This document shows, piece after piece, positions 2,326-31,615 of a stretch of DNA of 32,179 nt. Source of the stretch: Planctomycetaceae bacterium (GTDB lineage: Bacteria > Planctomycetota > Planctomycetia > Pirellulales > Pirellulaceae); NCBI GenBank assembly GCA_002724245.1, contig PBOG01000073.1, positions 17,249-49,427 on the forward strand, read 5' to 3'. The stretch's first letter is position 1. Every line of letters begins with the position of its first letter. The notes beneath the pieces are model-generated. The model did not search any database, was not told the DNA's origin, and was given only the letters and a program-made list of their open reading frames with translations. The position numbers and the translations under genes were made by a program.

Positions 2326-2551
2326 GGGCCGCATCTCCCAGTTGTTTGGCTCAGGGTCTTTTGCGAATACCGTCGATTGTACGCGATGGAGTACAGAAGA
2401 CCACACGTTGGCACCTGAGGATCGTCAAGAGCGTCGAAAGCAGGGTTGCCAGCTTGAGCAAATCGATTTAATTACGTGGAATACGTCCCGGTTTCCGCTA
2501 CGGTAGATTCTCCGTAAGGCAATTATTCCCACAGAACAGGACCGTTCTACG

Positions 2552-3980: not shown

Positions 3981-6900
3981 ATGCTTCGATTTTTCCGGTG
4001 CTGCCCTTGCGTTTGGTTGGCTGCAGCTATTTTGTGTTTGATTGGCTTGCCGGTGGAGCAGGTCACCGCGGCAGATGACGATTTGTTTGAACTACGCGTA
4101 CGTCCGTTGTTGGTCAAACACTGCCTGAATTGCCATGGGCCCAGGAAGCAAGAAGGTGGGCTGCGTTTGGATTCACGCACCGGATGGCAGCGTGGTGGCA
4201 GTCGTGGTGCGGCGATCCAGCCAGGTGAGGCTGGCAAGAGCTTGTTAATCCGAGCGGTCCACTACAACGATCCAGAACTTCAAATGCCACCTGGCGACAA
4301 GCTTAGCGCCCGTGAAATAGCGGACCTTGAAAAATGGGTGACCGGCGGTGCTATCGATCCAAGAGAGCTGGCGGACGACAGTTCCAGCGACAAACTCACG
4401 CTGGCCAAGGCAGCTGAATTCTGGTCGTTTCGACCTGTTTTCAGACCCGCACTTCCGGCCGAGAAATCAACAGATGTGTGGAGTTGGACGCCGATCGATC
4501 GATTCATCAAGGCACGGTTGGACGAACATCACTTAGTGCCTGTTCAAGATGCCGACAAACGCACACTGATACGGCGCGCGACATTTGATCTCACGGGGCT
4601 TCCACCAACACCGCAAGAAATCAGCCAGTTTCTCGCGGATGATGACCCGGCTGCTTTCCCGCAACTAGTAGATCGACTGCTCGAGACGAAGGCCTATGGT
4701 GAACGCTGGGGACGCCATTGGCTTGACGTCGCGCGGTATGCCGATACCGCAGGTGATGGATCAGATTATCCAGTCCGTGAGGCGGTAAAATATCGCGATT
4801 GGGTGATTAACGCTTTTAGTGTAGACCAGCCTTATGACGAATTCTTGAGAGAACAGATCGCCGGTGACATCATAGCTGTGAACGGACCGCGGTCGCTTTA
4901 TGCGTCGCGGGTTACGGCGACAGGTTTTCTGGCGATTGGCAAACGGTATGGTTACCAACCTTCGCCGGCTTTCCAGCACCTGGATTTTGCCGATGTAATT
5001 GACTCCGTCGGTCGCTCACTGCTTGGTCTTTCACTGGGCTGTGCACGCTGTCACGACCACAAATACGATCCAATTTCTGCTGCCGATTATTACGGGCTGT
5101 ACGGGATCTTGCAGAGTACAAGATGGGCTTTTCCCGGAGGAGAGGAACAAAAACGACCCTCTGATTTTCCACTTCTCGTGCCGCCGAAAGAGGCAGCACA
5201 ACTGAAACAACAACAAGCAGAATCTTTAGCTTCCATTGACCGCCAGTTGGCACAACTCCGTGCAGAGCGTATTCGGAAGGACACCAACTGGCAGGCTGGT
5301 GGATTAGATCTGGGGATGGAATCGCAAGTCCTTGGAAAGCCGCTATCCGAACCCTGGGTTTGCGCAGGGCCGATCGAAGTCGTGGCGAAAGCACAGAGTC
5401 CATTCGCACATGTGCACCCACCCGGCACACGCGGTGTCCGCATGGGGAGTGGTGCCAGGACAGACGGAATCCGTTATGTCTTCAAGGAGGGATTGCAGGC
5501 CAGCTCCGGGAAAAAGATGTATTTCAATATCGACTTTCGCACAGCGGCCGGAGCAGATCAGAAAGGGGCCTATCGCTTTTATCTGGGACAGGGTGTTGTC
5601 GCTTCATTGGCCATTGAATGCAGCATCACGCCGGAAGCATTTGTCATTCGCAATGGCACCCGTTGGGAAGTGTTGCGCAAGCTGCAAACCGGCAAGTGGT
5701 ACACCCTGCAAATCACGATAGATCCGGCAAAGAAAACTTATTCGGGGCTGGTTGGTGCGATCGGCGACCTGACTGAATTTGCTGGGAAACAAGTTGCGCC
5801 CAACTGGAATGGAATTGCTGATTGTTTTATTTGTGATGCGACGGGGCATGTCGCGGGTCCGGCCAGCGAACGAGACATTGATAATCTTGGTTTACAAGCG
5901 ACTCCGTTTCCACTGCCTGGCAGCAAACCTGTTTTGCCACGAATGGAAACTCCAGCAGATCGAGTTCGCGTCGCTGAAATTCAAGTTGTCCAGGACAGTT
6001 TGAAGAAACGTCGCAAAGAGCTCTCAGACCATCCTGTGTATGAAGTTGCCTATGGAGTGAGTGAAGGAACGCCAGTCAATGCACGCATTCAGCTGCGAGG
6101 AGATCCAGCTAAACCAGGCGACGAGGTACCGCGTCGCTTCCTCAGAGTGCTTGGAGGCGATGCGGTTGGTGCCGATTCGACAGGCAGCGGGCGGCTGCAA
6201 CTGGCCTCCTGGCTCACTCGTGATTCGAATCCGCTTACCGCTCGAGTATTCGTGAACCGTGTCTGGCAATGGCACTTTGGCCGGGGAATTGTTTCGACCG
6301 CCAGCGATTTTGGGTCTCGAGGTGCGGCGCCGACCCACCCTGCCTTGCTTGATTGGCTCGCGGCTGAGTTTATGGACTCCGGATGGTCGGTGAAAACGTT
6401 GCATCGACACATGATGCGATCTCGAACGTACCAGTTGGCGAGTAGGGACCATCCAGGTAATTTGGCTGCGGATCCCACGAACCAATGGCTGTGGAGATAT
6501 ACGCGTCGGCCGCTGGACGCGGAGTCGATTCGTGACGCAATTCTCGTGGTTAGTGGAGCTTTGAATCGTGGCCAACCAGGTCCGCACCCGTTTCCCGCTG
6601 TCCACACCTGGGGTTTCACGATTCACCATCCGTTTCACGCGGTTTATGATTCCAACCACCGTAGTGTTTATTTGATGACACAGCGGAATCGCCGCCACCC
6701 TTATCTGGCCCTGTTCGATTCTGCAGACCCAAATCTCAGTATTGGATCTCGGCAACCGACGACGACTCCAACGCAGGCTCTCTACCTGATGAACTCAGAG
6801 TTTGTCCATGCGCAGGCCAGGAGTTTTGCCGAGCGACTGTTTCGCTCAAGTGGTACCAGACAGGAGCGAGTTCGATTGGCGTTTGAGTTGGGGCATGGTC

Positions 6901-7064
6901 GTCAGCCACCGGAAGCGGAATTTCAGGCTGCGGTGGATTTCCTGTCGAGCTATACCGATGAATTAGCGGATGCAAATCAGAAGCAAACGGACCGTCGGCT
7001 GGCCGCATGGGCCGCCTTGGCCCGGGTGATTTTGACCAGCAACGCTTTCTTGTTTGTTGATTAA
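3981..7064 (+). CDS. Secreted cytochrome c/DUF1549/DUF1553 protein with LamG-like insert (pair 1, first gene)
   Basis: A 1027-residue exported planctomycete protein. Residues 1-30 form a Sec signal peptide ending VTA. A PSCyt1-type cytochrome c domain follows, with CLNCH at 48-52 as the heme site and the distal MPP methionine near 102. DUF1549 (PSCyt2) spans roughly 145-385 (TPIDRFIKARL, RRATFDLTGLPPTP, YGERWGRHWLDVARYADT) and contains a second CXXCH, CARCHDHKYDPI at 354-358. A predicted beta-rich LamG/concanavalin-like insert occupies about 435-640. DUF1553 (PSD1) occupies about 685-1027 (VFVNRVWQWHFGRGIVST, PTHPALLDWLAAEF, DAESIRDAIL) and ends NAFLFVD. The DUF1501 gene starts 22 bases downstream, so the two are almost certainly co-transcribed. 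Domain content is well supported. The biochemical role is unknown; proposals of periplasmic electron transfer or glycan processing are inference. Confidence 0.93.
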   Translation: MLRFFRCCPCVWLAAAILCLIGLPVEQVTAADDDLFELRVRPLLVKHCLNCHGPRKQEGGLRLDSRTGWQRGGSRGAAIQPGEAGKSLLIRAVHYNDPELQMPPGDKLSAREIADLEKWVTGGAIDPRELADDSSSDKLTLAKAAEFWSFRPVFRPALPAEKSTDVWSWTPIDRFIKARLDEHHLVPVQDADKRTLIRRATFDLTGLPPTPQEISQFLADDDPAAFPQLVDRLLETKAYGERWGRHWLDVARYADTAGDGSDYPVREAVKYRDWVINAFSVDQPYDEFLREQIAGDIIAVNGPRSLYASRVTATGFLAIGKRYGYQPSPAFQHLDFADVIDSVGRSLLGLSLGCARCHDHKYDPISAADYYGLYGILQSTRWAFPGGEEQKRPSDFPLLVPPKEAAQLKQQQAESLASIDRQLAQLRAERIRKDTNWQAGGLDLGMESQVLGKPLSEPWVCAGPIEVVAKAQSPFAHVHPPGTRGVRMGSGARTDGIRYVFKEGLQASSGKKMYFNIDFRTAAGADQKGAYRFYLGQGVVASLAIECSITPEAFVIRNGTRWEVLRKLQTGKWYTLQITIDPAKKTYSGLVGAIGDLTEFAGKQVAPNWNGIADCFICDATGHVAGPASERDIDNLGLQATPFPLPGSKPVLPRMETPADRVRVAEIQVVQDSLKKRRKELSDHPVYEVAYGVSEGTPVNARIQLRGDPAKPGDEVPRRFLRVLGGDAVGADSTGSGRLQLASWLTRDSNPLTARVFVNRVWQWHFGRGIVSTASDFGSRGAAPTHPALLDWLAAEFMDSGWSVKTLHRHMMRSRTYQLASRDHPGNLAADPTNQWLWRYTRRPLDAESIRDAILVVSGALNRGQPGPHPFPAVHTWGFTIHHPFHAVYDSNHRSVYLMTQRNRRHPYLALFDSADPNLSIGSRQPTTTPTQALYLMNSEFVHAQARSFAERLFRSSGTRQERVRLAFELGHGRQPPEAEFQAAVDFLSSYTDELADANQKQTDRRLAAWAALARVILTSNAFLFVD

Positions 7065-7086
7065 CTGCAACATTTGAATCACAGCA

Positions 7087-8484
7087 ATGTCATATCTTAT
7101 CAAGCCAACGCGTCGCCAATTTCTAGAGACCGCTTCTGGTGGCTTCGCGGCTACGGCATTGGCCGGTATCTGCAGCGATGTTCAAGCGGCCTCAAGAGAC
7201 CCCTTGGCGGCACGCTCTGGTCACTACGTCCCACAGGCAGATCGTGTGATTTTTGTGTATGCGACTGGCGGAGTGTCGCATGTCGATACGTTCGATTACA
7301 AACCTCAGTTGACGGTCGACCATGGGAAATCGATTACCGCATCCCGTTGGTTGAACAAGTCTGGAGAGTTCAAGCGGTACCTTATCCAATCGCGGTGGGG
7401 CTTTAACCGGTATGGACAGAACGGTGTCTGGGTAAGTGGGCTGTTTCCACACCTCGCGCAGATGATCGATGATGTCTGTGTGCTCAATGCAGTGCATTGT
7501 GACAGTGATGGTCATGACAAAGGCACACTCGCCGCACACACCGGGTCGGCCCAGTTTGCACGTCCCAGCGTTGGTGCCTGGGTCAGTTACGGACTGGGTA
7601 CCGAGAATCGGAATTTACCTTCTTTTATGGTCCTGGCACCCGCTGCTCCCTACGCGGGTGCCCAGACCTGGGCCAGTGATTTTCTTCCCGGTTGTCATCA
7701 AGGCACCCACGTGATTCCAGGCAATGAACCCGTACCGCATGTGAAACCGCGAGTAGCTTCACATGCACTGCAGGAAATGGAGCGGAAACTGCGAAACCGG
7801 TTGAATCAGGTTCATCAAGAACGGCGACAAGCGGACCTGACGATTGATGCCCGTATCCGCTCCTTTGAAACAGCGTTTGGGATGCAACGCGCTGCCCCTG
7901 AAGCGTTTGACCTGAGTCGTGAGAGCGAACGGACGCTGGAGATGTACGGGATAAAACGTGGAGATACAAACGGTTTTGGATGGCAGTGCCTGATGGCACG
8001 GCGTTTGTCAGAACGTGGAGTACGTTTTATTGAGCTGATTGATGTCGGATCCAACAATAACTGGGATTCGCATGGGAATATGGGCGATCATGAACGGTTA
8101 GCCCGTAACATCGACAAGCCACTGGCTGGGTTGCTGGCGGACTTGAAACAACGCGGCATGTTGGAGCGAACGTTGGTAGTTTGGACATCGGAATTTGGAC
8201 GGACCCCGTTTAATACCAGTGCTTCGCATGCCGGGCGCGAACATCACAATTTCTGTTTTTCTTCATGGATGGCGGGCGGCGGCGTCAAAGGCGGAATGGT
8301 TCATGGAAAATCTGATGAACATGGCATCCTGCCTGTCCAGGACAGCGTGCATACTCATGACTTGCACGCCACGATGTTGCATTTACTTGGCATCGATCAC
8401 GAACGCCTTACCTATCGTCACGCGGGTCGCGATTTTCGGCTGACTGATGTAGCGGGGCGTATCGTTACGGAAATCCTGGTATGA
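7087..8484 (+). CDS. Tat-exported DUF1501 protein (pair 1, second gene)
   Basis: A 465-residue protein of the alkaline phosphatase/sulfatase-like superfamily. It begins with a clear Tat signal, TRRQFLETASGGFAATALAG at residues 8-27, followed by a cleavable region ending near VQAAS. Family landmarks in order are the metal-site-like ATGGVSHVDTFDYKP (59-73), the NNWDSHGNMGDH motif, SEFGRTPFN, a histidine-rich GREHHN just before the conserved MAGGGVKGG, and DLHATMLHLLGIDHERLTY before the end, RLTDVAGRIVTEILV. Such histidines and aspartates resemble metal ligands of the superfamily, but the usual sulfatase Cys/Ser-x-Pro-x-Arg signature is not evident, so sulfatase activity should not be assumed. 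It follows the cytochrome gene directly, as in three other places in this window. It converges on the acyltransferase gene. Confidence 0.93.
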   Translation: MSYLIKPTRRQFLETASGGFAATALAGICSDVQAASRDPLAARSGHYVPQADRVIFVYATGGVSHVDTFDYKPQLTVDHGKSITASRWLNKSGEFKRYLIQSRWGFNRYGQNGVWVSGLFPHLAQMIDDVCVLNAVHCDSDGHDKGTLAAHTGSAQFARPSVGAWVSYGLGTENRNLPSFMVLAPAAPYAGAQTWASDFLPGCHQGTHVIPGNEPVPHVKPRVASHALQEMERKLRNRLNQVHQERRQADLTIDARIRSFETAFGMQRAAPEAFDLSRESERTLEMYGIKRGDTNGFGWQCLMARRLSERGVRFIELIDVGSNNNWDSHGNMGDHERLARNIDKPLAGLLADLKQRGMLERTLVVWTSEFGRTPFNTSASHAGREHHNFCFSSWMAGGGVKGGMVHGKSDEHGILPVQDSVHTHDLHATMLHLLGIDHERLTYRHAGRDFRLTDVAGRIVTEILV

Positions 8485-8626: not shown

Positions 8627-9793
8627 CTACACGCGCAAGAAAGCTCCTTGACGGTACAGTGACCGGCAGAGCAACATCGCGAACAAGAGTCCCAGAACGG
8701 AAACAGAGAGTGGTCCGTACGGCTCAATTTGCTCCACCATCTGGGGAGGGATCACGCCTTGGGCGATGGTCCAGGCAGGACTCGCGCGGTACACGAGGCT
8801 CGAGAAACCGCCCACGAAATTCTGCAGCATGTAGATCGTAATACAGTTGGTCCCAATCCATACAAATGGCTGGGCCCAGAAGCGAATTTTCCAGACATCG
8901 ATTACCAGGTAGAACACGGCCAACAGCAGGAAGCTCCAGCCACCTGCCAGGAGTACATAGGATGAAGTCCAGAGCTTTTTGATAATCGGAAAGTGCATTC
9001 CCCAGAAATGACCACCGGCCAGGCACAATCCTCCCAACACAAGCAGATAAAACAACTTCTTCCATGCTGCCGAGCTTTCGTTTTGAATGACCAGCCCGGC
9101 TAGCATCCCCAACAGTCCTGTGGCGATAGCGGGCAAGGTGCTCAACAGGCCTTCGGGGTCCCAGTCGCCGTCCCACTTGTATCCTGGGAGATAGTGTTGG
9201 TCGATGTAATTCGCTAGATTCATGCCTTCCTGGAAGTTGCCTCTCCCGTGTTCGGGGACATCAATAAAGGTCATGGCGGCCCAATAGCCACCGAGTAGCA
9301 CGGCACTGATTGCCAGCAATCCCCGGAACCGAAAATGAATGAACAACAGGCCGCTAAACAGGTAGCAAATTGCGATTCTCTGCAGGACCCCGACATAACG
9401 GAACGACTCAGGATCGCCACGGCCGCCATAGTAGATCAAACCCAGGACATAGAGTGCAAGTGAACGAAACAGAACGCGCCGGTAGGCAGCCACTTTTCCC
9501 CGCTGGGTAATCACTTTCGTTAACGAAAAGACAGCCGATGTTCCCATCAGGAACACAAACAGCGGGAAAATCAGGTCCCAGAAGTGGAAGCCCTCCCAGG
9601 CGACATGCGTCAGCTGTTCGGCGATCAGTTCCAGCCTTTGCGGATCGATTCCTTGCAGTTTTTCGGACTTTGCGAGTTCCTGGATTCCGTGTACCAGGCT
9701 ACTTGCGCCCATAATCCAGAACATGTCGAACCCGCGCAAGGCGTCGATCGATACGATACGGCGTAAAGCGGGCGACTCTTGCATGGTGGCCAT
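8627..9793 (-). CDS. HGSNAT/NagX-like multi-pass membrane acyltransferase (DUF5009/DUF1624 type)
   Basis: A 388-residue integral membrane protein resembling heparan-alpha-glucosaminide N-acetyltransferase. In that family an acetyl group is carried across the membrane onto an amino sugar. The hallmark N-terminal IVSIDALRGFDMFWIMG is at about 13-29, followed by WEGFHFWDLIFPLFVFLMG. The family motifs LLSTLPAIATGLLGMLAG and KKLWTSSYVLLAGGWS come later, along with about ten hydrophobic segments and WIGTNCITIYMLQN near the C-terminus. The ATG at 9793 is preceded by AGGA eight or nine bases upstream, within a tandemly duplicated 16-mer. An internal Met at codon 4 is an alternative start. The upstream neighbour on the same strand is the deiminase-like gene, 428 bases away, so co-transcription is uncertain. 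Family membership is strong; the acceptor sugar is unknown. Confidence 0.88.
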   Translation of the reverse strand: MATMQESPALRRIVSIDALRGFDMFWIMGASSLVHGIQELAKSEKLQGIDPQRLELIAEQLTHVAWEGFHFWDLIFPLFVFLMGTSAVFSLTKVITQRGKVAAYRRVLFRSLALYVLGLIYYGGRGDPESFRYVGVLQRIAICYLFSGLLFIHFRFRGLLAISAVLLGGYWAAMTFIDVPEHGRGNFQEGMNLANYIDQHYLPGYKWDGDWDPEGLLSTLPAIATGLLGMLAGLVIQNESSAAWKKLFYLLVLGGLCLAGGHFWGMHFPIIKKLWTSSYVLLAGGWSFLLLAVFYLVIDVWKIRFWAQPFVWIGTNCITIYMLQNFVGGFSSLVYRASPAWTIAQGVIPPQMVEQIEPYGPLSVSVLGLLFAMLLCRSLYRQGAFLRV

Positions 9794-9828: not shown

Positions 9829-10221
9829 TACGCCACAGCCCAGCCGCGATTACAGAGCCGTTCCGCAGTTCATATTACAGTTCATATTAATCCGACAGGG
9901 GCCTTAAAGACGAGCTTTCTTTTTTCTGGCAACAAATTATCTGTTAGCCGGATCGCCGTAGAGCCGCTGCCGTACGGTTGTTTCATTGAATCGTCCAGAC
10001 CAAACCGCAGGGTATAAAACGCACTGCGGTAACCGGTCCGATTTCCGGTCGCCAGGTACAGCGCGGAGTGTTCTGGTGCGAATGACCAGCGGTTTGGCCG
10101 GTGGGGATTTCCTGTTCTTGAATTCAGGGCGCTGTATTCTGGAAGCCCGAAGTGCTCCGGGTCACCGGATCGTCTTCTGATCGCTTTGTGTGTGCGCAGA
10201 GAAATCACTCGCGCTCGACTA
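9829..10221. other. Intergenic region; unsupported 108-codon minus-strand reading frame
   Basis: No recognised gene lies here. A minus-strand reading frame (10208 down to 9882, 108 codons) shows fair codon texture and an internal near-repeat, PEYSALNSRTGNPHRPNR against PEHSALYLATGNRTGYR, but I know no family it matches. On the DNA level, ccaaaccgc at 10000-10008 and gcggtttgg at 10089-10097 form a nine-base inverted repeat flanking an inner accgg/ccggt pair. A small structured RNA or a decayed short repeat element is as likely as a gene. Confidence 0.3.
9866..9889. repeat. Perfect tandem duplication of a 12-mer
   Basis: The unit cagttcatatta is present twice in direct succession at 9866-9877 and 9878-9889, only 37 bases beyond the duplicated 16-mer and still in the upstream region of the minus-strand acyltransferase gene. 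It is AT-rich and could overlap the promoter. Confidence 0.9.
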
Positions 10222-11622
10222 TTAGTGTCGTTCTAATGGCATCGTCAGGCAATGTGGGCCGCCGTTGGCACGCATGAGTTCTGTAGCAGCGAAGGTATCT
10301 ACCTGGATTCCAGCTGACCGCAAATTGGAGTTGGTATGGGGGTTGCCAGCATAACTTACCAGATGCGCCGGGCGCAGCGCGACGACGTTGGCTGCCATGA
10401 AGCGGGCCTCTCGAATCACGCGTTCGGTGGTGTACCTGAGAGAATTGCCATGGGGTGGCAGCTGGCCACCAACGTAATTCACTTCGTAACCCTGAGCTTT
10501 CAGGTAGTCGAGAAGTTTTACTCTTCCGAGGGTTCGGTCTGGTTTGCCAGAGCCGGCCTGGAACCGGGTAATCCAGCCGACATTTTGAACTTCGTTGAGC
10601 ATTGCAATCCGTTCCGGTCGCGACAGCCGCTCGATTCTGGAAAGCCCTATCAGGATTTCTAGAAGTGGATTGTTACGGGCGTGTTGTTGTTCCAGCAGAT
10701 AGGGAATTGCCAGCACTCGTTTGTGGTCCACGAAATTAAGCAGGCAGTCGAGATGGTAGAAGATGGATTGCAGGCCACTCCATTCACCCGGCCATTGTTC
10801 AACGCTTGGCATTTGTACCGCAATGACATCCATCTCAAGAACCTTGGCAAGACGTATGGCCGCTTCTTGCTGTGTTGCGTTTCCGATGCCGACCAACAGT
10901 GTCTTTTTGTCGGCAAGCAGGACGTCGCCACCTTCTACGTAGACTTGCTCGGTGATGGCGTCGAATACAATTGGGTATTTGTCCAGTGTTGTGGCATTCC
11001 GAAATATGAACCGGGTGAGCGCGGACTCGAATGCGCGACGATCATGATTGAAATTACAGATGACCACACCACGAGGTGTCATTACCGCAAGGTCTCTCGT
11101 GAAAAAGAGTGTTGTTGTGGGACTTGTCGCCGGGTTTAGCAGGCCAGAATCGTCTCGCTGATAAACAAACCGATCGTCAATTCCTAGTAGAGATTGCGCC
11201 GTGACATGGGCTTCGTGCTTCACGAGCCGTGGGGCATTGTTTTGCAGCCATGCAGTAAATGCACCGTTTGCACGACAACGCTTGATGGACTCCTCGAGGA
11301 GCTGTTCAAAGTATAAAACTTCGATGCCGTGACGGGTTAGTTGCGCCACGAAATGCTTGTGTTGGATCGCCGCTTCTGGCCGCAGTAACTCCCACGTCAA
11401 CATCGAATGCTGTCCACTGAACATGGGGAAGGTCCGCAGGGTTTCCGGACCGGGTGGATGTACAAGTACTCGCTTTAGAGGGGCTATTTCCGACGAGACG
11501 AAATGCGGGTTTGATCCATCCGCGTTTTCTGACTGAGGTAGCTGGGACGCTTGCGGACCGGCCGTCAAACGACTGGCTGTGGTGGCGGTCAGGGCGGTGA
11601 TGAGAAAGTTACGGCGGTGCAT
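10222..11622 (-). CDS. Exported arginine deiminase / amidinotransferase-superfamily protein
   Basis: A 466-residue guanidine-modifying (pentein fold) enzyme, most like arginine deiminase, which hydrolyses arginine to citrulline and ammonia. From the ATG at 11622 it starts with a twin-arginine-type signal (HRRNFLITALTATTASRLTA). Catalytic landmarks are Asp177 in FFTRDLAV, Glu230 in VEGGDVLL, His290 and Asp292 in FYHLDCLLNF, and the nucleophile Cys458 in NGGPHCLTMPLER. The full deiminase set is therefore present. MRANGG is also in the usual place before the cysteine. AGG and GGGA lie just upstream of 11622. A longer frame from 11709 would bury the signal peptide behind 29 residues, so I reject it. 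Bacterial arginine deiminases are normally cytoplasmic and about 410 residues, so the signal sequence is unusual. No arcB/arcC/arcD-like genes are nearby. A peptidyl or other guanidino substrate is possible. Confidence 0.85.
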   Translation of the reverse strand: MHRRNFLITALTATTASRLTAGPQASQLPQSENADGSNPHFVSSEIAPLKRVLVHPPGPETLRTFPMFSGQHSMLTWELLRPEAAIQHKHFVAQLTRHGIEVLYFEQLLEESIKRCRANGAFTAWLQNNAPRLVKHEAHVTAQSLLGIDDRFVYQRDDSGLLNPATSPTTTLFFTRDLAVMTPRGVVICNFNHDRRAFESALTRFIFRNATTLDKYPIVFDAITEQVYVEGGDVLLADKKTLLVGIGNATQQEAAIRLAKVLEMDVIAVQMPSVEQWPGEWSGLQSIFYHLDCLLNFVDHKRVLAIPYLLEQQHARNNPLLEILIGLSRIERLSRPERIAMLNEVQNVGWITRFQAGSGKPDRTLGRVKLLDYLKAQGYEVNYVGGQLPPHGNSLRYTTERVIREARFMAANVVALRPAHLVSYAGNPHTNSNLRSAGIQVDTFAATELMRANGGPHCLTMPLERH

Positions 11623-11935
11623 TCGTTTCCCTGCCTGTACCGGATTTGGGCGATTCTGGTCTACTGCCCCCGAAAGCATAGCTTGCAGTGGCCACACTGA
11701 GGGTAACAAAAAGGCCAGTTTTCCTGGAGACAGCGCGGTTGGTGGCCTGTGGCTCTTCCTGCATGGGCGCAGGAGTTTTTATGAGATTCACTTGCGTCGA
11801 GGGCGCCACAGTGCTGGCAGTCCGCGGCGAATCACTGATTTGTCCGTCGACCGGCCATTCCAGTCCGTTGGTCCAGTTGGAGTTGATTTGAATTCCTGGA
11901 CTGGGACAATAGCGGCTTGGGTTGTATTTTGTGCT
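11609..11935 (-). CDS. Possible small gene overlapping the deiminase start (uncertain)
   Basis: On the minus strand a frame runs from about 11935 to a TAA at 11609-11611, overlapping the first codons of the deiminase-like gene by 14 bases, as operonic genes often do. It encodes about 108 residues including YNPSRYCPSPGIQINSNW and NGLEWPVDGQ, then a Ser/Thr/Pro-rich stretch and a short hydrophobic segment (GLFVTLSVATASYAFGG) near the C-terminus. Codon texture looks plausible, but the only upstream ATG codons fall inside the divergent DUF1549 gene. No convincing start or known family is seen. I list it as a candidate only; it would otherwise leave a 336-base divergent promoter region. Confidence 0.22.
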   Translation of the reverse strand, partial: STKYNPSRYCPSPGIQINSNWTNGLEWPVDGQISDSPRTASTVAPSTQVNLIKTPAPMQEEPQATNRAVSRKTGLFVTLSVATASYAFGGSRPESPKSGTGRETNAPP

Positions 11936-11958
11936 CGCCGGATTTCTTGGAGATTTCC

Positions 11959-13635
11959 ATGCTCTCAGCATTCTTCCGGATCGCATGGTTGTGGTGTGTT
12001 GTGCCGTTAATCTGGACGGACGGGTTGTTGGCATCCGATGCGTTGGAGATTGCACAACGCATTGATGCGTCGATCGATGCCAAATTGCGGACAGAAAAAA
12101 TCGCTACCGCGGTTCCCGCGGGCGAAGCCGAGTTCTTGCGCAGGGTCTATCTCGATTTGACGGGGCGGATTCCCACGGCCGACCAGGCTGCCCGATATCT
12201 CGACCGTTCTCATGCCAGTCAACGTACGCAGTTGATTGACGAATTGCTGGCATCGCCAAAGTATGGCGAGCATTTCGGTCGCGTTTGGCGCGATTGGATT
12301 GCTCCCGCCGAACTTCCTTCCGAAGGAAACGGTGGCAATCAGCCGATCGCAGCAACGCGAAAACTGGGTGTGTGGTTTGGAGAGCAATTCAATCAGAACG
12401 AATCCTGGGATCGTCTGGTCTATTCTGTGCTCACCGTAGATGGCGAACTGGCGGATCATCCACAGGCCTTGTTCTACTCGTTAGTCGGCACGGATACGGG
12501 AATTCCTCAACCGGCGGGCGCAACACGCGCTGTGGGAACATTGTTCCTGGGATTGCAACTCCAGTGCGCTGAATGCCATGACGATCCGTTTCGTACCTGG
12601 AAGCAAAGCGACTTTTGGGGTGCTGCTGCCTTTTTCCGTAACACCGAAGCGACTTTCGATGGCCGCTACTTTGCCAGTGTGACTGAAACGTTTGGTAAAG
12701 AAACTTCTGCGAAAGGCAAACGTTCGAGCAAGAAGACGACGCGCAATGACCGAGCACCGAACGGGTCGATTACCATTCCTTCGGCTTCTTTCACCAATAG
12801 TGGAACGGTGATTTCGGGAAAATTTCCTGCAGGCGAGGCCTTGGCGGCCGAAGCTCGCCAACCGCTACGTCCAATACTGGCGGAGTGGATTGTTTCGCCG
12901 GAAAATCCCTACTTCAGTCGAGCCTTTGTGAACCGGATGTGGTCGTATTTTTTCGTGCGTGGGATCGTTAATCCGATCGATGATTTTCGGCCAGATAACC
13001 CGCCCACGCACCCTGAAATACTGGACTTGTTGGCCGCCGAATTTCGGTCGTCTGGTTTCGATGTCAAACATCTGATCCGCTGTATTCTCAATGCGCGTGT
13101 TTATCAGCGCGGCAACGGTAGCGATCCCAAATCTGCCCCACAGCAATTGGCGAAGCAGGCCGATTGGTTTGCCCGCTACCCACTGAAACTGATCTCCACA
13201 GACATGTTATTTGAGTCACTTAAGTTGGCGCTCGAGGACCCGGGACTCGACCTGCGGACTGTCGACCCAGCACTCTCGAGTAAATTCGGCGAAAGTACGC
13301 CGATCGGTGATGCCTATCAGGAATTCACGCGTCTGTTTGAGACCAACGAAAATGATCCCACAGATTTTCGACACGGTATTCCACAATTTCTGGCGTTAAT
13401 GAATCATCCTCGGATTGGTGATGGTGGGAAAAAGGTAGAGCGATTACTGAAAGCGAAGTTGGAATCGACGGCCATTATTGAGCAACTCTATCTAGGGACG
13501 TTGTCGCGACGGCCTGCAAGTGAAGAAACAGACGAGGCGATACGCTTTGTCCAGGCAAGTTCAACTCCGCGGGTTGGCTACAACGGGCTGTTATGGATGC
13601 TGATCAATCGCAGCGAATTTCTTTTGATCCGCTGA
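11959..13635 (+). CDS. Secreted DUF1549/DUF1553 protein, short form without PSCyt1 (pair 2, first gene)
   Basis: A 558-residue exported protein starting at the ATG at 11959, which has GGAG nine bases upstream. A Sec signal peptide covers about residues 1-26. DUF1549 follows directly (FLRRVYLDLTGRIPTADQA, LLASPKYGEHFGRVWRDW), and its CXXCH is CAECHDDPF at 203-207. A lysine-rich linker (KGKRSSKKTTRN) precedes DUF1553 (AFVNRMWSYFFVRGIVNP, PTHPEILDLLAAEF, HLIRCILNARVYQ). Unlike the other three homologues in the window, it has no N-terminal PSCyt1 cytochrome and no LamG-like insert, so it retains a single heme-type motif, with CHDD replacing CHDH. It is followed after 40 bases by a DUF1501 gene of a divergent subtype. 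An in-frame start at 11917 would add 14 residues ahead of the signal and is less likely. Confidence 0.9.
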   Translation: MLSAFFRIAWLWCVVPLIWTDGLLASDALEIAQRIDASIDAKLRTEKIATAVPAGEAEFLRRVYLDLTGRIPTADQAARYLDRSHASQRTQLIDELLASPKYGEHFGRVWRDWIAPAELPSEGNGGNQPIAATRKLGVWFGEQFNQNESWDRLVYSVLTVDGELADHPQALFYSLVGTDTGIPQPAGATRAVGTLFLGLQLQCAECHDDPFRTWKQSDFWGAAAFFRNTEATFDGRYFASVTETFGKETSAKGKRSSKKTTRNDRAPNGSITIPSASFTNSGTVISGKFPAGEALAAEARQPLRPILAEWIVSPENPYFSRAFVNRMWSYFFVRGIVNPIDDFRPDNPPTHPEILDLLAAEFRSSGFDVKHLIRCILNARVYQRGNGSDPKSAPQQLAKQADWFARYPLKLISTDMLFESLKLALEDPGLDLRTVDPALSSKFGESTPIGDAYQEFTRLFETNENDPTDFRHGIPQFLALMNHPRIGDGGKKVERLLKAKLESTAIIEQLYLGTLSRRPASEETDEAIRFVQASSTPRVGYNGLLWMLINRSEFLLIR

Positions 13636-13675
13636 ATTGTGTCGCACAGGATCTTGCGAAAAAGGGAACCGAATT

Positions 13676-14956
13676 ATGATGAAAGCCAGCTGGCAACCGT
13701 GTCGCCGTGACGTGTTAAAGCTTTCTTCGGCAGGTTTGTTGACGAACGCTTCGGTGCCGTGGTTTGAAGCACTGGCAACGGATGCACAACAACAAAGTGG
13801 CCGGGCTCCCAAGGCTTGTATTTTACTGTGGATGGATGGTGGTCCGAGCCAGCAGCACACATTTGATCCCAAGCCGCGCGGTGAATTTGGATCGATCTCG
13901 ACATCGGTGCCGGGGATCCACATATGTGAGCACTTGCCGCAGATGTCCCAGGTGATGGATGAAGTTGCTCTGATTCGATCGATGAGCACGGGCGAGGGTG
14001 ACCACTATCGGGCGAAATATTACTTGCATACAGGATTCCAGAGAGTTGGTGGGTTTGAACATCCCGCGATTGGGTGTATTGCGTCACACGAAAACGGAGA
14101 TCCTGCCAATGACCTGCCGAGTTTTGTGACGATTGACGCAGGATACGATAAAGGCAATGGCGGGCGGTTGTATCGGTCTGTTCCCAGCTATCTTGGTGCG
14201 CGTCATGCGCCGCTGGCCGTGAGGCACCCTGACACGGGGCTTGAGAATCAACCTGCGGATGCGGGCGATGTCGAATTGTCGAGGCGATTGGCCTTACTTG
14301 CACGCGGCGAGCAGCGGTTTGCGCAGCAGTACGCCAACCCACTTGTCCGCCAGAAACAGACGGCCTTTGACCGCGCTGTTTCGTTGATGCGGTCCAGTGC
14401 GGTAACCGCCTTTGACGTGGATGATGAATCTCCAGCACTCCGTGCTGCGTATGGCTCGCATCGATTTGGCAAGGCGTGTTTGATGGCGCGAAGGTTGGTT
14501 GAGCGCGGTGCTTCTTTTATTGAAATTTTCCATCGCGGTTGGGACGACCACGAAGGGGCTGCACAACGTGTTAAACCACGGATGGGATGGATGGATCCCG
14601 CCATGGCGACACTCATTACTGACCTGAAAAGTCGTGGTTTACTCGAACGGACCTTGATTATCTGGATGGGTGAGTTCGGTCGCGGTCCTGTTAATGGCAA
14701 GGATCACTACGCACGAGCCTGGACAACAATGTTGGCTGGTGCAGGACTCAAGACGGGCCAGGTGGTTGGTCGGACGGATGAAAAGACCCGGCATACCGGT
14801 GGTACGGTCGTTGACCGTCCGGTAAGCGTCCCTGATTTCTTCGCGACCATTTGCCAGGCACTAGATGTCGATCCGGCGAAAGAGTTTCACGCACCCGGCA
14901 ATCGGCCGATGCCGATTGTTGATCCTGATGGCTCTGCCATCACGGAGCTTTTTTGA
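13676..14956 (+). CDS. DUF1501 protein, divergent subtype (pair 2, second gene)
   Basis: A 426-residue exported protein of the DUF1501 family. ATG codons at 13676 and 13679 both follow AGGGA. The N-terminus has a Tat-like signal, CRRDVLKLSSAGLLTNASVP. Landmarks are WMDGGPSQQHTFDPKP, RGWDDHEG, GEFGRGPVNGKDHYARAW, MLAGAGLKTG and the C-terminal VSVPDFFATICQALDVDP. Compared with the other DUF1501 proteins here, the HxDxFD-type motif reads QQHTFD, the histidine cluster is reduced to KDHYA, and the C-terminal end lacks the RLTDV segment. It belongs to the subtype that accompanies short DUF1549/DUF1553 proteins. It ends 135 bases from the convergent pair 3. Confidence 0.92.
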   Translation: MMKASWQPCRRDVLKLSSAGLLTNASVPWFEALATDAQQQSGRAPKACILLWMDGGPSQQHTFDPKPRGEFGSISTSVPGIHICEHLPQMSQVMDEVALIRSMSTGEGDHYRAKYYLHTGFQRVGGFEHPAIGCIASHENGDPANDLPSFVTIDAGYDKGNGGRLYRSVPSYLGARHAPLAVRHPDTGLENQPADAGDVELSRRLALLARGEQRFAQQYANPLVRQKQTAFDRAVSLMRSSAVTAFDVDDESPALRAAYGSHRFGKACLMARRLVERGASFIEIFHRGWDDHEGAAQRVKPRMGWMDPAMATLITDLKSRGLLERTLIIWMGEFGRGPVNGKDHYARAWTTMLAGAGLKTGQVVGRTDEKTRHTGGTVVDRPVSVPDFFATICQALDVDPAKEFHAPGNRPMPIVDPDGSAITELF

Positions 14957-15091
14957 CGCATTTGGGGGTACTCGGCAGAGCCAGTGGGTTGCGGAGATTG
15001 TGCGCTTGAAATGATGTACTTGCGGGCTCTGGTGCGAAACTCGATGGGCCCCAAGAGGTTCGCTCATTTTGATTTATCCGTCGGTCGCACT

Positions 15092-16543
15092 TCAAATCAA
15101 GATGTCGCTTAGTACCTGGCCGTGCACATCGGTGAGGCGGAAATCGCGCCCCGCATAGTGGTAAGTAAGTTCCTCATGATCCAGGCCGAGAATGTGCAGA
15201 ATTGTTGCGTGCAAGTCGTGGACATGGACCGGGTTTTCGACAACCAGATTGCCGTATTCGTCGCTTTGGCCGTACAGTGTGCCCCCGCGTATACCGCCTC
15301 CCGCGAGCAGACAAGTAAACGCTGAGTTATGGTGATTGCGTCCCTTTTCGTTTTTTGTGCCAGCTGGTGCACGTCCGAATTCGGTACAAATGGCTACCAG
15401 TGTTTCGTCGAACATGCCACGGAGCTTGAGATCCTGGATTAATGCCGCCAGCGGCTGATCGATTTGCCTGGCTAGATTCCGGTGGTGCGCCATATCACCG
15501 TGCGAGTCCCAGTTGCCACCGGATCCTGTGTGGACGACTTCGACTACACGCACCCCATGTTCTACCATTCGCCTGGCGGCGAGCAGTTGCCAGGCAATCG
15601 ATTGTTTGTCACCAGCTTGAATGCCGTACCGGCTTCTGGCACCGTTGGTTTCGCTTTCCAAATCAAGTACCTGGGGAGCGACCTTCATCATGCCCGCTGC
15701 GGTGTTAAATGTTGCAATTCTCGCGTCCAGCTGTGGATCGTTCTGTCGTTCAATCAAATGTTTACGGTTTAGTTTTTGCAGCATCTCTTGTTCCAGCTCA
15801 CGCAGGGACAGTGATGGCAACGGGCTTTTCAAATGTGGGACCGGGTCGTTACCTGGAATGAGACGAGTTCCCGTGTGATAAGCAGGAAGAAAACTTGCGT
15901 CCCAGACCTGGCTTCCCATATAGGGCAGGGCCGACGCCAGGACAACAAAGGGAGGTAGATTGAGATTGTGCGTCCCCAGCCCGTAACTGATCCAGGAACC
16001 GATACTGGGCATCGGTATCGTGGTCAAACCGCAGTGCATGGCCAGTGTTGCCTGGCCATGACTGATATGATCGGTGACCATGGAGCGGATGACCGCCATG
16101 TCGTCGATGGTGCTCCCCAGCATGGGGAACAGCTCACTGACCATCAGGCCTGCATTGCCTTTTGGAGAAAAACGAAACGGAGAAGCGTTCAGATAAAACG
16201 GCCTGCCTCGCCAGTCCATTACTTTTCCGTGGTCTGCTTGCAATCGAGGTTTATAGTCAAACGAGTCAATGTGCGACAAACCACCCGTCAAGTTAACCAG
16301 AATCAAGTTTTTTGCGCGGGCTGGAAAATGTGAAGGTCTTGGTGCCAGTGGGTGTGCCCCTTCCTGGCGGGCAGCCTGGACAAGTTGCGGTCGCAATATC
16401 CGTTGGTCGAATAACGCGACTGCTGAACCACTAGTGAGGGTGCGCATGAATTCACGACGCGAACGGTGGCGTTGATAGTCTGGCGCAGATCCGTCCGTTG
16501 TAGTGGTCGAGGGATGGTGACCGCCGTGACTTTTGTCTGTCAT
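15092..16543 (-). CDS. Tat-exported DUF1501 protein (pair 3, second gene)
   Basis: A 483-residue member of the DUF1501 family. A longer N-region, rich in His, Ser and Thr, precedes the Tat motif SRREFMRTLTSGSAVALF. Landmarks are LTGGLSHIDSFDYKP, GNWDSHGDMAHH, TEFGRAPAGTKNEKGRNHHN, LLAGGGIRGGTLYGQSDEYG, DLHATILHILGLDHEELTYHYAGRDFRLTDV and the end, VLSDILI. It begins only six bases after the stop of its cytochrome partner, so the two are tightly coupled. It is very similar in plan to the pair 1 protein, suggesting duplication of the whole unit. Confidence 0.93.
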   Translation of the reverse strand: MTDKSHGGHHPSTTTTDGSAPDYQRHRSRREFMRTLTSGSAVALFDQRILRPQLVQAARQEGAHPLAPRPSHFPARAKNLILVNLTGGLSHIDSFDYKPRLQADHGKVMDWRGRPFYLNASPFRFSPKGNAGLMVSELFPMLGSTIDDMAVIRSMVTDHISHGQATLAMHCGLTTIPMPSIGSWISYGLGTHNLNLPPFVVLASALPYMGSQVWDASFLPAYHTGTRLIPGNDPVPHLKSPLPSLSLRELEQEMLQKLNRKHLIERQNDPQLDARIATFNTAAGMMKVAPQVLDLESETNGARSRYGIQAGDKQSIAWQLLAARRMVEHGVRVVEVVHTGSGGNWDSHGDMAHHRNLARQIDQPLAALIQDLKLRGMFDETLVAICTEFGRAPAGTKNEKGRNHHNSAFTCLLAGGGIRGGTLYGQSDEYGNLVVENPVHVHDLHATILHILGLDHEELTYHYAGRDFRLTDVHGQVLSDILI

Positions 16544-16549
16544 TGCCTG

Positions 16550-19500
16550 CTAATCCACGTAAAGAAATTCGTTTGCCGTCAACACTAATCGACTGTAACT
16601 GGCCCAGGCGGCCAACTCGATTTGCCGAGGTGCCATCCGTTTTCGATATCGCTCCGGAATACCACGATAGACACGCAGTTCATCGATTTCACCAAGGAAA
16701 CTCCGTTCGACTATGGAGATACCCAGTCCGACACGAAAGGTGAGTGGACTGGGTTGTACTGTTTCCGTTAAGAGAACTTCGGAGGCCAGTTGTTTGTTAA
16801 CAAACAGACGCATGGTCGTTGGCGAACGAACGAGCGCGATGTGCTGCCATTTGCCGGTTTCCAGTTGGACTGGGTTGCTGAGTATCCACCTGTTTTGGCC
16901 CACACCGAACGACCCCCGAAACTGGTTGGTTGCAGTACCCTGTTGCTGAAGTACGAAACCCCGGCCACCCCCCAGGTGGTTCCCGAAAATATCGGCGTAA
17001 TTGGCCTGTTCGGGTCCTGGCCGGACCCAGCACTCTACGGTGAACGCGTTTCCCAGGTGGTTCATTGTGGTGCCACTATCGACGTAATCGCCAGCTCCAT
17101 CCAGTGAGATACATTGCCCGCGGTACCCTGGGAGAAATTGTGGATCGCCGATCAATGTTCCGTGTTGTGTTGCGCCGGAAGTGTCGCTGGCATCGCCTTC
17201 GAATTGATATTCCAACAAGAGCTGGGGCGCGGCTTGCTCGGGCGCCGTGTTGCCTGCAAATTTCATGTTCTCAGCAAATGTGGCGATGTAGTTCAATGCC
17301 TGGTCGATTTCACTTGGAGTTGGTTCTCTCGACCAGGCACTTTGTATTGCCCTGATAATTCGTTGTCGCGGGGCAGAGTACGTGTTCAGCAACCGTTGTG
17401 CCAGTTTTTCCGATTGCTGGTGAATAAAAGGACTATTGCGGAGATAGAGTGCCTGCAGCGCGACAGCGGTGTTTTTTCTTTGTGACGTGACACGGCTGGG
17501 ATCTGCGCCATCAAACAACGCCAGGAACGGATGGCGTTGGATACGTTGTGTCATTAGATAGACGCTACGGTGTGGTGAATCGTAGATTGCCTTGAAGGGA
17601 CCATGCTGACTGAACTGCCAGCCTGATTCCGGGGGAAACGGGTGCGCGCCAGGACGGTCTGTGTTGAGTACACCGGATGTTTGCAGAATTCCGTCGCGAA
17701 TGGACTCGGCGTCCAGCCGTCTTCGGTCGAATCGCCAGTACCAGCGGTTTGTGGGATCGACCGTTAGGTTGGATGAATCTGCGGTACTGGCTAACTGGTA
17801 GGTGTTGGACAGGAGAATCTGACGATGTAGATGTTTGACTGACCAGCCGTTGTCGATGAACTCCCGGGCCAGCCAATCCAACAGTTGCGGATGTGTAGGT
17901 AGTGCACCACCGAGTCCGAAATTGTCCACGGTACTGACGATTCCCTTGCCGAAGTGAAATCGCCAAATGTAATTGGCAGCGACCCGGGGAGTGAGTGGAT
18001 TGTCTGGGCTGCTGAGCCAGCGCGCGAATTGGAGCCGGCCACTTTGACCGGCGGGGATCTGGAATGCTTGTCTGCCTGCCAATCGCTGGAGAACTCCTCG
18101 TTGTACCACCTTCCCTTCGTCGAACGGATCCCCTCCGATTTGTACAGGCACATCGTGCGGTGTACCCTCGCGCATCGCGTAAGCCCGTTGAATATCGGCC
18201 CCACGTTCCACGGATTTCAGCTCATCCCACAGTTTGCGGACGCTGGTGTCGAGTTTCGCAACCACCTCGCGAATGCGGATGTCCTGGTCGTCGATGCTCG
18301 TTCGCAGAGCGACGTCACTGAGGCCTTGGCGACGGAGTTGATGATACCGAGCCACATCGCGATTGAGCCGTTTTCGTTTGGCTTGCAACTCTTTTTGCGC
18401 CGGATGGTCTGCACGCTGTTGCTGGATTTGAGCCCGTAGCTGCTCAATGCGAGTTCGCTGCTCGGGATCCAGTTCCGACCATTGACTGCGCGAGATTAAT
18501 GGTACGGTTTCACCGGCAGAAAAGGTGGGCAATTCTGATCCGCTGAAGGGGTACCTGCTACTGGCGAAGATACCGTAAATACGATAGTAGTCCGCAGTAG
18601 AAATCGGCTCGACCTTGTGGTCATGGCATCGCGCACAGCGAATACTCAAGCCCAGAATTGACTTGCCAATGGTATCGATGGTGTCTTCGATGATCAGTTC
18701 CGGGTGGTAATGCTTGAAGATTCCATTGCGTAGTGAGAGTCCGACGAATCCAGTGGCGATGATCGCCTCAGAGGAATTGTCCTCCGGATTGCTGGCAGCT
18801 ATCAGATCTCCGGCGATTTGTTCTCGGATGAACAGATCGTAGGGCTTGTCGCTGCGAAATGAATCAATGACGTAATCTCGGTACAAATAGGCCTGTGGAA
18901 CAGGGCAATCGACACTGCCGCCCTGGGTATCGGAATAGCGGGCTAAATCCAACCAGTGGCGGCCCCAACGTTCGCCGTATTGTGCTGAATTCAGTAGCCG
19001 ATTGACGATCTGTTTCCAGGCCGCTGGAGACGGATCTTGCACAAAGGACTGGACCTCTTGCCAAGGCGGTGGCAGACCGACCAGATCGAAATAGACACGA
19101 CGGATAAGGGTGCGTGCATCGGCTTGTTGCCCCAGGGCGAGTCCCTGTTGGCGCAGATTGTCAACAATAAATGCGTCAATGGGATTGGCCGACCATCCCG
19201 TGTTATCCGCCGGAGGTTCGACGTGACCAAGCGGAGCAAAAGACCAGTGGTTCTCTGTATTGTCGCGAGGTGGTGTGCCAGTCGATGTGGGCCATGGCGC
19301 GCCAGCGGCGATCCATTCTTCCAGCAGCTCGATTTCTTCGTTGGGAAGTTTTCCGGTGGGTGGCATCTGCGGGCCGTCCTGTTCGTAACGCACTGCTTGA
19401 ATCAGGAGGCTGCGGTTCACGTTTCCAGGGACAATCGCCGGACCGTTCTTGCCACCGGCCAGTAATGCCAGACGCGAATCGATGCGGAGTTCATGGCCCC

Positions 19501-19678
19501 TTTTGTTTTCTCCATGACAGCGTATGCAGCGCCGTAGTAGTAGCGGGCGAATCCGTTGTTCGAAGAAGTCTGGCCCCTTGTCATTTGTGTTGCCGCCACC
19601 AAGAGTAGCGGCGTTCGTCAGCAACGTTGCCGCGGCGAAAGGGACGATCAGTCGGAGCAGGTTAAAAGAATATTGCAT
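16550..19678 (-). CDS. Secreted cytochrome c/DUF1549/DUF1553 protein with C-terminal LamG insert (pair 3, first gene)
   Basis: A 1042-residue exported protein, taking the ATG at 19678 (a TTG at 19702 would add eight residues). The order is a signal peptide (LLRLIVPFAAATLLTNA), PSCyt1 cytochrome c with CIRCH near 51-55 and distal MPP, and DUF1549 (NPIDAFIVDNLRQQ, RRVYFDLVGLPPPW, YGERWGRHWLDLARYSDT) with CARCHDHKVEPI near 345. A coiled, Arg/Gln/Glu-rich stretch and DUF1553 (VAANYIWRFHFGKGIVST, PTHPQLLDWLAREF, DAESIRDGIL) follow. A LamG domain then appears near 820-1012 (YQFEGDAS, FTVECWVRPG, GKWQHIALVRS, GEIDELRVYRG). The last 25 residues return to the DUF1553 end (AAWASYSRLVLTANEFLYVD), so LamG is inserted inside DUF1553 and not appended. 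The DUF1501 partner starts six bases later. Confidence 0.93.
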   Translation of the reverse strand: MQYSFNLLRLIVPFAAATLLTNAATLGGGNTNDKGPDFFEQRIRPLLLRRCIRCHGENKRGHELRIDSRLALLAGGKNGPAIVPGNVNRSLLIQAVRYEQDGPQMPPTGKLPNEEIELLEEWIAAGAPWPTSTGTPPRDNTENHWSFAPLGHVEPPADNTGWSANPIDAFIVDNLRQQGLALGQQADARTLIRRVYFDLVGLPPPWQEVQSFVQDPSPAAWKQIVNRLLNSAQYGERWGRHWLDLARYSDTQGGSVDCPVPQAYLYRDYVIDSFRSDKPYDLFIREQIAGDLIAASNPEDNSSEAIIATGFVGLSLRNGIFKHYHPELIIEDTIDTIGKSILGLSIRCARCHDHKVEPISTADYYRIYGIFASSRYPFSGSELPTFSAGETVPLISRSQWSELDPEQRTRIEQLRAQIQQQRADHPAQKELQAKRKRLNRDVARYHQLRRQGLSDVALRTSIDDQDIRIREVVAKLDTSVRKLWDELKSVERGADIQRAYAMREGTPHDVPVQIGGDPFDEGKVVQRGVLQRLAGRQAFQIPAGQSGRLQFARWLSSPDNPLTPRVAANYIWRFHFGKGIVSTVDNFGLGGALPTHPQLLDWLAREFIDNGWSVKHLHRQILLSNTYQLASTADSSNLTVDPTNRWYWRFDRRRLDAESIRDGILQTSGVLNTDRPGAHPFPPESGWQFSQHGPFKAIYDSPHRSVYLMTQRIQRHPFLALFDGADPSRVTSQRKNTAVALQALYLRNSPFIHQQSEKLAQRLLNTYSAPRQRIIRAIQSAWSREPTPSEIDQALNYIATFAENMKFAGNTAPEQAAPQLLLEYQFEGDASDTSGATQHGTLIGDPQFLPGYRGQCISLDGAGDYVDSGTTMNHLGNAFTVECWVRPGPEQANYADIFGNHLGGGRGFVLQQQGTATNQFRGSFGVGQNRWILSNPVQLETGKWQHIALVRSPTTMRLFVNKQLASEVLLTETVQPSPLTFRVGLGISIVERSFLGEIDELRVYRGIPERYRKRMAPRQIELAAWASYSRLVLTANEFLYVD

Positions 19679-20084
19679 GGAGAAGCCAGGCGGAGAGTCC
19701 AAAAGGAGTGACTGTCTGCTAATTGTACCCTGCTGAATAGGCGCCTTGGCAAGTCTGTTGGAAGTGGGCGAATCGTCTTTCGCTGAGCAATTCGCATGCC
19801 GTCAAGTGATCTGTGAAAAAGGGCCAGTTTTTGCGTGCTGGTTGTGACTGGAAGAACGCCCGTGCCGCGCCAATACAGAATCTCGTGTCAGGTGCGTGAG
19901 GCCGGCCGGTCGTGGTAGGATGACAGTCCTGTCGGTTTGGAAAGGCGGCGCCCAGTGTTTTGTCCGTCTGCGTTTTGTCCGTCTGCAAACCGCAGTGGGT
20001 ATCTCCCCACCCGTTGCGAAGCGGCTTGCTTTCGCAGCGATGCTCTGGAACGTTTATGAGTTCACGATTTGATGAGGCAGATTC
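19679..20084. other. Divergent promoter region between pairs 3 and 4
   Basis: These 406 bases separate two divergent units and should contain promoters for both. I cannot pick a convincing -35/-10 pair. The only clear structure is a perfect tandem 15-mer at 19957-19986. A minus-strand reading frame runs through the region and into the start of pair 4, but it resembles no known family and I do not call it. Confidence 0.5.
19957..19986. repeat. Perfect tandem duplication of a 15-mer in the divergent promoter region
   Basis: The unit gttttgtccgtctgc occurs twice without spacing, at 19957-19971 and 19972-19986. It lies about 100 bases upstream of the pair 4 start and about 280 bases upstream of the pair 3 start. 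It could be a duplicated operator or a replication-slippage product. Confidence 0.9.
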
Positions 20085-31009: not shown

Positions 31010-31615
31010 GAAGGCTGGAAACAATGAGCACCTCGGTTTGGCGAGTAAATAAGGCAAGAGCTACACATGTCAACATACATTGAATGCTTGCGCGAAACGA
31101 ACCCAGGAAGGTAGCAGGTTCGTTCGGGCCGAGGTGACCGAGTGGACAATGTTGCTAGCAACCGTCTCGATTGACCAATGTGTCAGGGGTTCTAGCACGT
31201 ATCTGTTGGGAATCCACTGCCGTTGCACCAAAGCTGATATTGTGCCGGCAGGTGGATAATCATTGAACGCCGGTCCGAGCGTTTTGGCATCGCACTGTGA
31301 GGGCATCTCTACCAGGCAGGTGTTTGTGTCTTGCGAGTCAGAGACGGTTGTTGATTGGCTGCTAGTTGTGCACGGTTTGCCAAGGGTAGTGAACGCACAT
31401 GGTCGCTTGTTGCCTTACGGTCCAGCGCTGTCGTGTACGTGTGGCTAAGCACCGGTAGGTCGGGCGTACGTGTCGCGGAATACCTGTTTGCCGCGTGTTC
31501 GAGGTGACTGGAAATTGGCTTCCCATATTGTTTATTTATCCCAGGTTAACTTCAGTGGGCCGCTGGTTGGGATTTTGCCTTGGAGATATGGCAATTTTGA
31601 GTTGAGCCGGGATCG
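31010..31615. other. Gene-free stretch
   Basis: About 600 bases upstream of the giant DUF1592-family gene with no coding frame that resembles a protein, no tRNA-like structure and no repeat that I can see. It should contain the promoter of that gene. The stretch just before 31616 is locally AT-rich (around 31520-31545), which could hold a promoter for the small plus-strand frame that follows. Confidence 0.5.

Follow-up and report, generated by a model that had tools for sequence, protein, structure and literature searches.

The window, by which is meant the whole stretch of 32,179 nucleotides of planctomycete DNA analysed here, carries on its minus strand a gene for a protein resembling arginine deiminases (ADIs). 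The gene runs from an ATG at 11622 to a stop codon ending at 10222 and encodes 466 residues without an internal stop (Table 1). A first-pass annotation had called an ADI-like open reading frame at this place without stating its strand; the frame is real, and its match to ADIs lies far beyond chance. Comparison with the counterpart in a same-genus relative (L002 in genome G033, 83% identical) gave an overall dN/dS of 0.155, indicating purifying selection. A longer frame starting from a TTG at 11709 was rejected, since several insertions and deletions are needed to align the upstream DNA with that of L002. A promoter and terminator scan yielded no signal above that of shuffled sequences.

Table 1. 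Features of the window, with coordinates counted from its first nucleotide; residues are numbered in the ADI-like protein.
Feature	Position	Strand	Basis or conservation
ADI-like protein gene (P0001)	10222..11622	-	466 aa; Pfam, PDB profile search, predicted model, dN/dS
Tat-type leader, about residues 1-22 (cleavage point guessed)	11557..11622	-	RRx[FW][LF] in 8/8; modelled helix
T171, position of the substrate-binding Asn of ADIs	11110..11112	-	T/S/F/W in 9/9 clade members
D177, putative guanidinium-binding Asp (FTRD)	11092..11094	-	Kept in 9/9 clade members
R196, sole carboxylate-binding Arg kept	11035..11037	-	9/9 clade members and 34/34 other rows (including the doubtful L037)
E230, putative catalytic Glu (EGGD)	10933..10935	-	Gln in 6/9 clade members
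A249, position of the second carboxylate-binding Arg of ADIs	10876..10878	-	Ala/Leu in 9/9 clade members; Arg in 33/33 alignable non-clade rows
H290, putative catalytic His	10753..10755	-	Kept in 9/9 clade members
D292, putative second guanidinium-binding Asp	10747..10749	-	Kept in 9/9 clade members
C458, putative nucleophile	10249..10251	-	Kept in 9/9 clade members
108-aa open reading frame	9882..10208		No Pfam match
NagX-like membrane protein	8627..9793	-	NF046061, 256.9 bits against a cut-off of 480
Four DUF1549/DUF1553 genes, each with an adjoining DUF1501 gene	3981..8484 and 11917..24908		Expanded planctomycete family
Further cytochrome-type DUF1592 protein	27128..31057		Expanded planctomycete family
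Molybdopterin oxidoreductase-domain protein	1081..2406	-	Far under the cut-offs of named sulfite dehydrogenases

Most of the Pfam matches among the other open reading frames of the window are to PSCyt/DUF1501 proteins. The NagX-like gene lies downstream of the ADI-like gene on the same strand, and follows it in the same-genus relative too. None of the 18 other open reading frames in the window belongs to an arginine-pathway family (Pfam; the first nine also against NCBIfam), so that arcB, arcC and arcD are absent from the neighbourhood, as had been remarked at first pass. In the genome as a whole, the best candidate for arcC reached 29.4 bits where the cut-off is 358.25, a value passed in 2 of 14 control genomes; no ADI energy pathway is therefore evident. 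The gene order around the ADI-like gene matches that in the same-genus relative, in which the NagX-like and DUF1549 neighbours were confirmed by phmmer. On the other hand, 10 flanking open reading frames picked mechanically at six more distant loci (L056-L060, L062) have no family in common and encode no arginine enzyme, and the idea of a conserved operon partner was rejected. The 108-residue open reading frame was also rejected as a partner gene; the open reading frame at the matching place in L002 is unrelated by eye. In a third member of the genus (G085, 81% complete), the searched region contains a DUF1549 protein of 45% identity and has neither the NagX-like nor the ADI-like gene, which is of little weight as a sign of an empty site.

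The protein matches the Pfam ADI family PF02274 at 3e-40 (138.9 bits; cut-off 22.8), and a three-sequence profile matched solved ADIs in the PDB at E 1.4e-32. It scores 148.8 bits against the NCBIfam arcA equivalog (ArcA, EC 3.5.3.6), below the cut-off of 489.1, a shortfall to be read with caution because TIGR01078 was passed by 2 and NF002381 by 4 of the 8 ADI-type controls scanned, and four planctomycete ADI-type controls pass neither. A structure predicted from a nine-sequence alignment (mean pLDDT 79.3, pTM 0.80) has the solved entry 1lxy as its best match (Z 38.2, rmsd 2.5 A, 348 residues aligned; Foldseek 6e-27). All eight ADI entries listed score Z 35.0 to 38.2 against the model, followed as the next family by NnhA (9azg, Z 27.5). 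In the ADI rows the structural alignment begins at residues 37 to 39 and runs to residue 466; the pocket lid region (residues 63-79) is modelled with pLDDT below 50. Sequence and predicted structure together place the protein in the guanidino-group-modifying superfamily, on the ADI branch, with its five-bladed alpha/beta propeller and ADI layout.

Within this branch the protein belongs to a clade of nine members, which come from two families of one planctomycete class and diverge to only about 37% identity. A match at E 0.001 is present in 3 of the 149 genomes of its own family, one of them the window's, and the same-family relative is 53% identical. A class-wide profile draw returned 7 of 397, again including the window; the six new ones are all in one other family, and a scan of that family recovered the same 6 among 45 genomes. 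The window's own genome has no second match to the protein at E 0.001 or better and no other ADI match. When 296 genomes of the order and 392 genomes of the phylum were scanned, nothing but distant ADI relatives appeared apart from the window, and a single genome-contig search for wider kin brought up just the record of the same-genus relative. One scan of viral contigs gave four pattern matches and no relative, and in a plasmid search all places were below 60% identity, the 20 listed being 25 to 29% identical and the annotated ones mostly named arginine deiminase; a mobile or viral origin of the gene was rejected on these results. In a tree, the nine clade members form one group and nine ADI-type proteins another, each with a support of 100/99, and the sister relation of the two groups is weaker (82/79); the tree and the 26-row table were chosen by eye and omit other distant matches. 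The residue counts given here were made on every distinct match among the loci collected, 43 rows in all (9 clade members and 34 others). One non-clade row, L037, has no aligned catalytic residues and is probably in the wrong frame; it was excluded, leaving 33 non-clade rows counted.

The active-site residues of ADIs map without gaps within blocks onto T171, R196, A249, F174, Y289, C458/H290/E230 and D177/D292. The five catalytic positions named in the first-pass annotation (D177, E230, H290, D292, C458) proved correct on alignment to solved ADIs and to the nine ADI-type proteins, and the window protein has the complete ArcA set of Cys, His, Glu and two Asp. The set is not conserved throughout the clade, E230 being replaced by Gln in six of the nine members; Glu stands at this position in 32 of the 33 readable non-clade rows. 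All six second-family members (L045-L050) have Gln for the Glu of EGGD and keep the Cys, the His and both Asp. The replacement is paired with another at position 249: three members combine Glu230 with Ala249 and six combine Gln230 with Leu249. N412 is kept in all nine.

The loss of the catalytic Glu in most members, together with an altered substrate end of the pocket, would be expected of an exported pseudoenzyme or binding protein, in which the ADI-like fold is no longer catalytic. Such a role is improbable, because the invariance of Asp177, His290, Asp292 and Cys458 in all nine members at about 37% identity is hard to explain without catalysis, and the window protein itself retains Glu230. 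From its residues, the window protein is likely to be catalytically active; the activity of the Gln-bearing half of the clade is less certain because of the replacement at position 230. A citrullinase of the CtlX type, in which both substrate Asp are reported to be Asn (PMC9007349), was rejected, as the Asp of FTRD and that of HLD are both kept in the window protein. Their retention argues for a guanidino substrate.

At the other end of the substrate, the pocket departs from that of ADIs. In Mycoplasma penetrans ADI, Asn198, Arg223 and Arg276 are reported as contacts of the substrate's amino and carboxylate groups, and the Arg equivalent to R196 serves in carboxylate binding (PMC3474736). These three residues align without gaps to T171, R196 and A249, so one of the three is kept in the window protein. 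Asn at position 171 is found in 23 of the 33 alignable non-clade rows, in all nine ADI-type rows and in none of the nine clade members; 24 non-clade rows have Asp at 292, and 23 of these also have Asn171. The branch of six members has Leu at both 249 and 289. Loss of Arg249 is specific to the clade, since all other relatives that could be read, even the types of only 300 residues, retain the Arg. However, when the 58 columns that never vary in the nine ADI-type rows are followed into the clade, 25 are conserved in all its members, 14 have changed in every one and 19 are variable; judged by these columns, the divergence of the clade is general, and the two pocket losses are not exceptional in themselves.

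These residues bear on whether the protein is an ordinary but exported arginine deiminase, which would convert external L-arginine to citrulline and ammonia and serve in nitrogen scavenging or a local rise in pH. The full ADI fold including both of its ends, the five catalytic residues of the window protein and the retained R196 are all in keeping with such an enzyme. In Porphyromonas gingivalis PPAD, an Ala mutant of one carboxylate Arg is reported to retain about 30% activity (PMC4487231), so an arginine carboxylate may still be bound after the loss of one Arg. Nevertheless, an ordinary exported ADI is rather unlikely: Arg249 and Asn171 are both lost in 9/9 clade members, while the Arg is kept in 33/33 alignable non-clade relatives; both residues are still present in the leader-bearing planctomycete proteins L029, L033 and L039; and the genome has no arcC above the cut-off.

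A more radical change of substrate is exemplified by NnhA, a derivative in the same superfamily that is reported to lack the residues binding the carboxylate and amino groups of arginine (PMC11659421). By analogy, the window protein could be an exported hydrolase of a non-guanidine that arose after loss of the arginine-binding residues, and the Leu at 249 and 289 in the six-member branch as well as the structural rank of NnhA directly after the ADIs would suit this idea. It is, however, very improbable, because the first guanidinium Asp is lost in NnhA (W149 in the same source, PMC11659421) and D177 is kept in all nine clade members. The Z of NnhA is moreover within 1 of those of other superfamily members.

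Tat leaders are characterized by RRxFL, a weakly hydrophobic core and a basic residue close to the end of the core. The leader of the window protein, MHRRNFLITALTATTASRLTAG, has RRxFL, a weakly hydrophobic core and a basic residue near the core's end, and it contains no Cys, by which a lipoprotein was rejected. The motif RRx[FW][LF], together with a weakly hydrophobic stretch, opens all eight clade proteins for which an N-terminus is available, amid leader residues that otherwise vary; the ninth member, L050, is cut by a contig end, and the start codons chosen for L045 and L048 (TTG or GTG) are uncertain. The twin-arginine-type signal proposed at first pass thus fits the pattern and is kept in the relatives, and a search within the clade for homologues that keep it, suggested at the same time, found none starting after the signal region. 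By inspection of the first 45 residues, the leader is absent from all nine ADI-type rows, one of which (L027) starts with MPRRPML without a hydrophobic stretch. In the model, residues 3-19 form a helix and residues 17-38, the linker, have pLDDT below 50; a leader and linker ahead of the ADI fold would be expected to be modelled in this way. TatC is encoded in the genome. With the twin-arginine pattern in 8/8 proteins and TatC present, export of the window protein is highly probable on sequence grounds.

It could be supposed that the leader is non-functional and that the enzyme remains in the cytoplasm, since the window protein has a weak hydrophobic core and its leader has changed faster than the rest of the chain (dN/dS against L002 of 0.50 for residues 1-40 and 0.126 for the mature part beyond). 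Faster evolution is usual for leaders. The persistence of the motif and hydrophobic stretch in 8/8 proteins amid variable residues, and an ADI fold that begins only at residue 38 of the model, make a cytoplasmic location most improbable.

Taking sequence and model together, we give about an even chance to the reading that the window protein is a Tat-exported hydrolase of the ADI branch acting on a guanidino compound, probably other than free L-arginine. The protein would fold in the cytoplasm and be carried folded across the inner membrane by the Tat translocon, after which the leader would be cut off. Asp177 and Asp292 would hold the guanidinium group, Cys458 would attack the guanidinium carbon with departure of ammonia (or an amine), and His290 would activate water for release of a ureido product. 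With the second carboxylate-binding Arg and the substrate-binding Asn gone, the main substrate is somewhat more probably something other than free L-arginine; the other carboxylate Arg, R196, is retained in all nine members, which speaks against this. Candidate substrates are those without a free amino-acid head, such as arginine within a peptide or protein and agmatine-like molecules. The first-pass proposal is supported in part: an exported ADI-like enzyme is well backed by the conserved leader, the ADI fold and the retained catalytic residues, and action on something other than free arginine, one of the options it named, gains from the loss of Arg and Asn in 9/9 members; host guanidines, which it also named, find no support in the material analysed.

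More tentatively, the clade may represent a planctomycete lineage in which an ADI became an exported enzyme with a new substrate, such as arginine in proteins or peptides, a Tat leader being added and the amino-acid clamp dismantled while the chemistry was kept, with one branch going on to use Gln for the catalytic Glu. If so, the clade would offer a series made by nature (Arg to Ala to Leu, and Glu to Gln) for testing the residues that determine substrate choice in the superfamily, and the name 'arginine deiminase', likely given to the clade proteins by automatic annotation, would be corrected. Already known are the family and its fold, and also the export of a deiminase by Tat, from Agu2A' (PMC6085387); among the matches listed from open-licence papers, no description was found of a clade on the ADI branch in which a Tat leader is conserved and the clamp altered.

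Among known systems, ArcA (TIGR01078, NF002381; 1lxy, 4e4j, 4bof, 1rxx/2a9g) shares with the window protein the fold, the domain layout, one carboxylate Arg, the Cys/His/Glu and both Asp. Unlike ArcA, the window protein has a leader, has lost the second carboxylate Arg and the substrate Asn, and is encoded outside an arc operon. There are precedents for exported deiminases. One is Agu2A' of Pseudomonas aeruginosa PA14, which is tabulated among Tat substrates (PMC6085387) and likewise has a Tat-type leader on a guanidino-group-modifying enzyme; compared by its description, it is named peptidyl-arginine deiminase / agmatine deiminase and is not of the ADI branch. The others are more distant relatives in the same phylum, where L029, L033 and L039 have a PF02274 domain behind a leader that by eye is Sec-like in L029/L033 and Tat/lipobox-like in L039. 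They are on separate tree branches and keep the Asn and Arg lost in the clade. L029 and L033 (each at 1174-2475 of its locus, minus strand; PF02274 9.4e-48 and 5e-46) are 434-residue ADI-family proteins from another family of the class that have all ADI substrate residues and are possibly exported true arginine deiminases. L039 (59-1069, minus strand) is a 337-residue ADI/DDAH-like protein with the leader MTRRQF...LAGC. NnhA (2-nitroimidazole nitrohydrolase) resembles the clade as a superfamily member without the residues holding the amino-acid head of arginine, but it has lost the first guanidinium Asp, has no ADI helical domain and has no leader reported in the available part of its description (PMC11659421). 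PPAD is, like the predicted form of the window protein, a secreted bacterial deiminase of the superfamily, with Cys/His/Asn and the guanidinium Asp pair; it is reported to differ in being closer to agmatine deiminases, in an extra immunoglobulin-like domain and in keeping two carboxylate-binding Arg (PMC4487231). If the clade does act on arginine in proteins or peptides, bacteria would have acquired extracytoplasmic citrullination along a second path, with the ADI branch as its source and not the agmatine-deiminase branch that led to PPAD.
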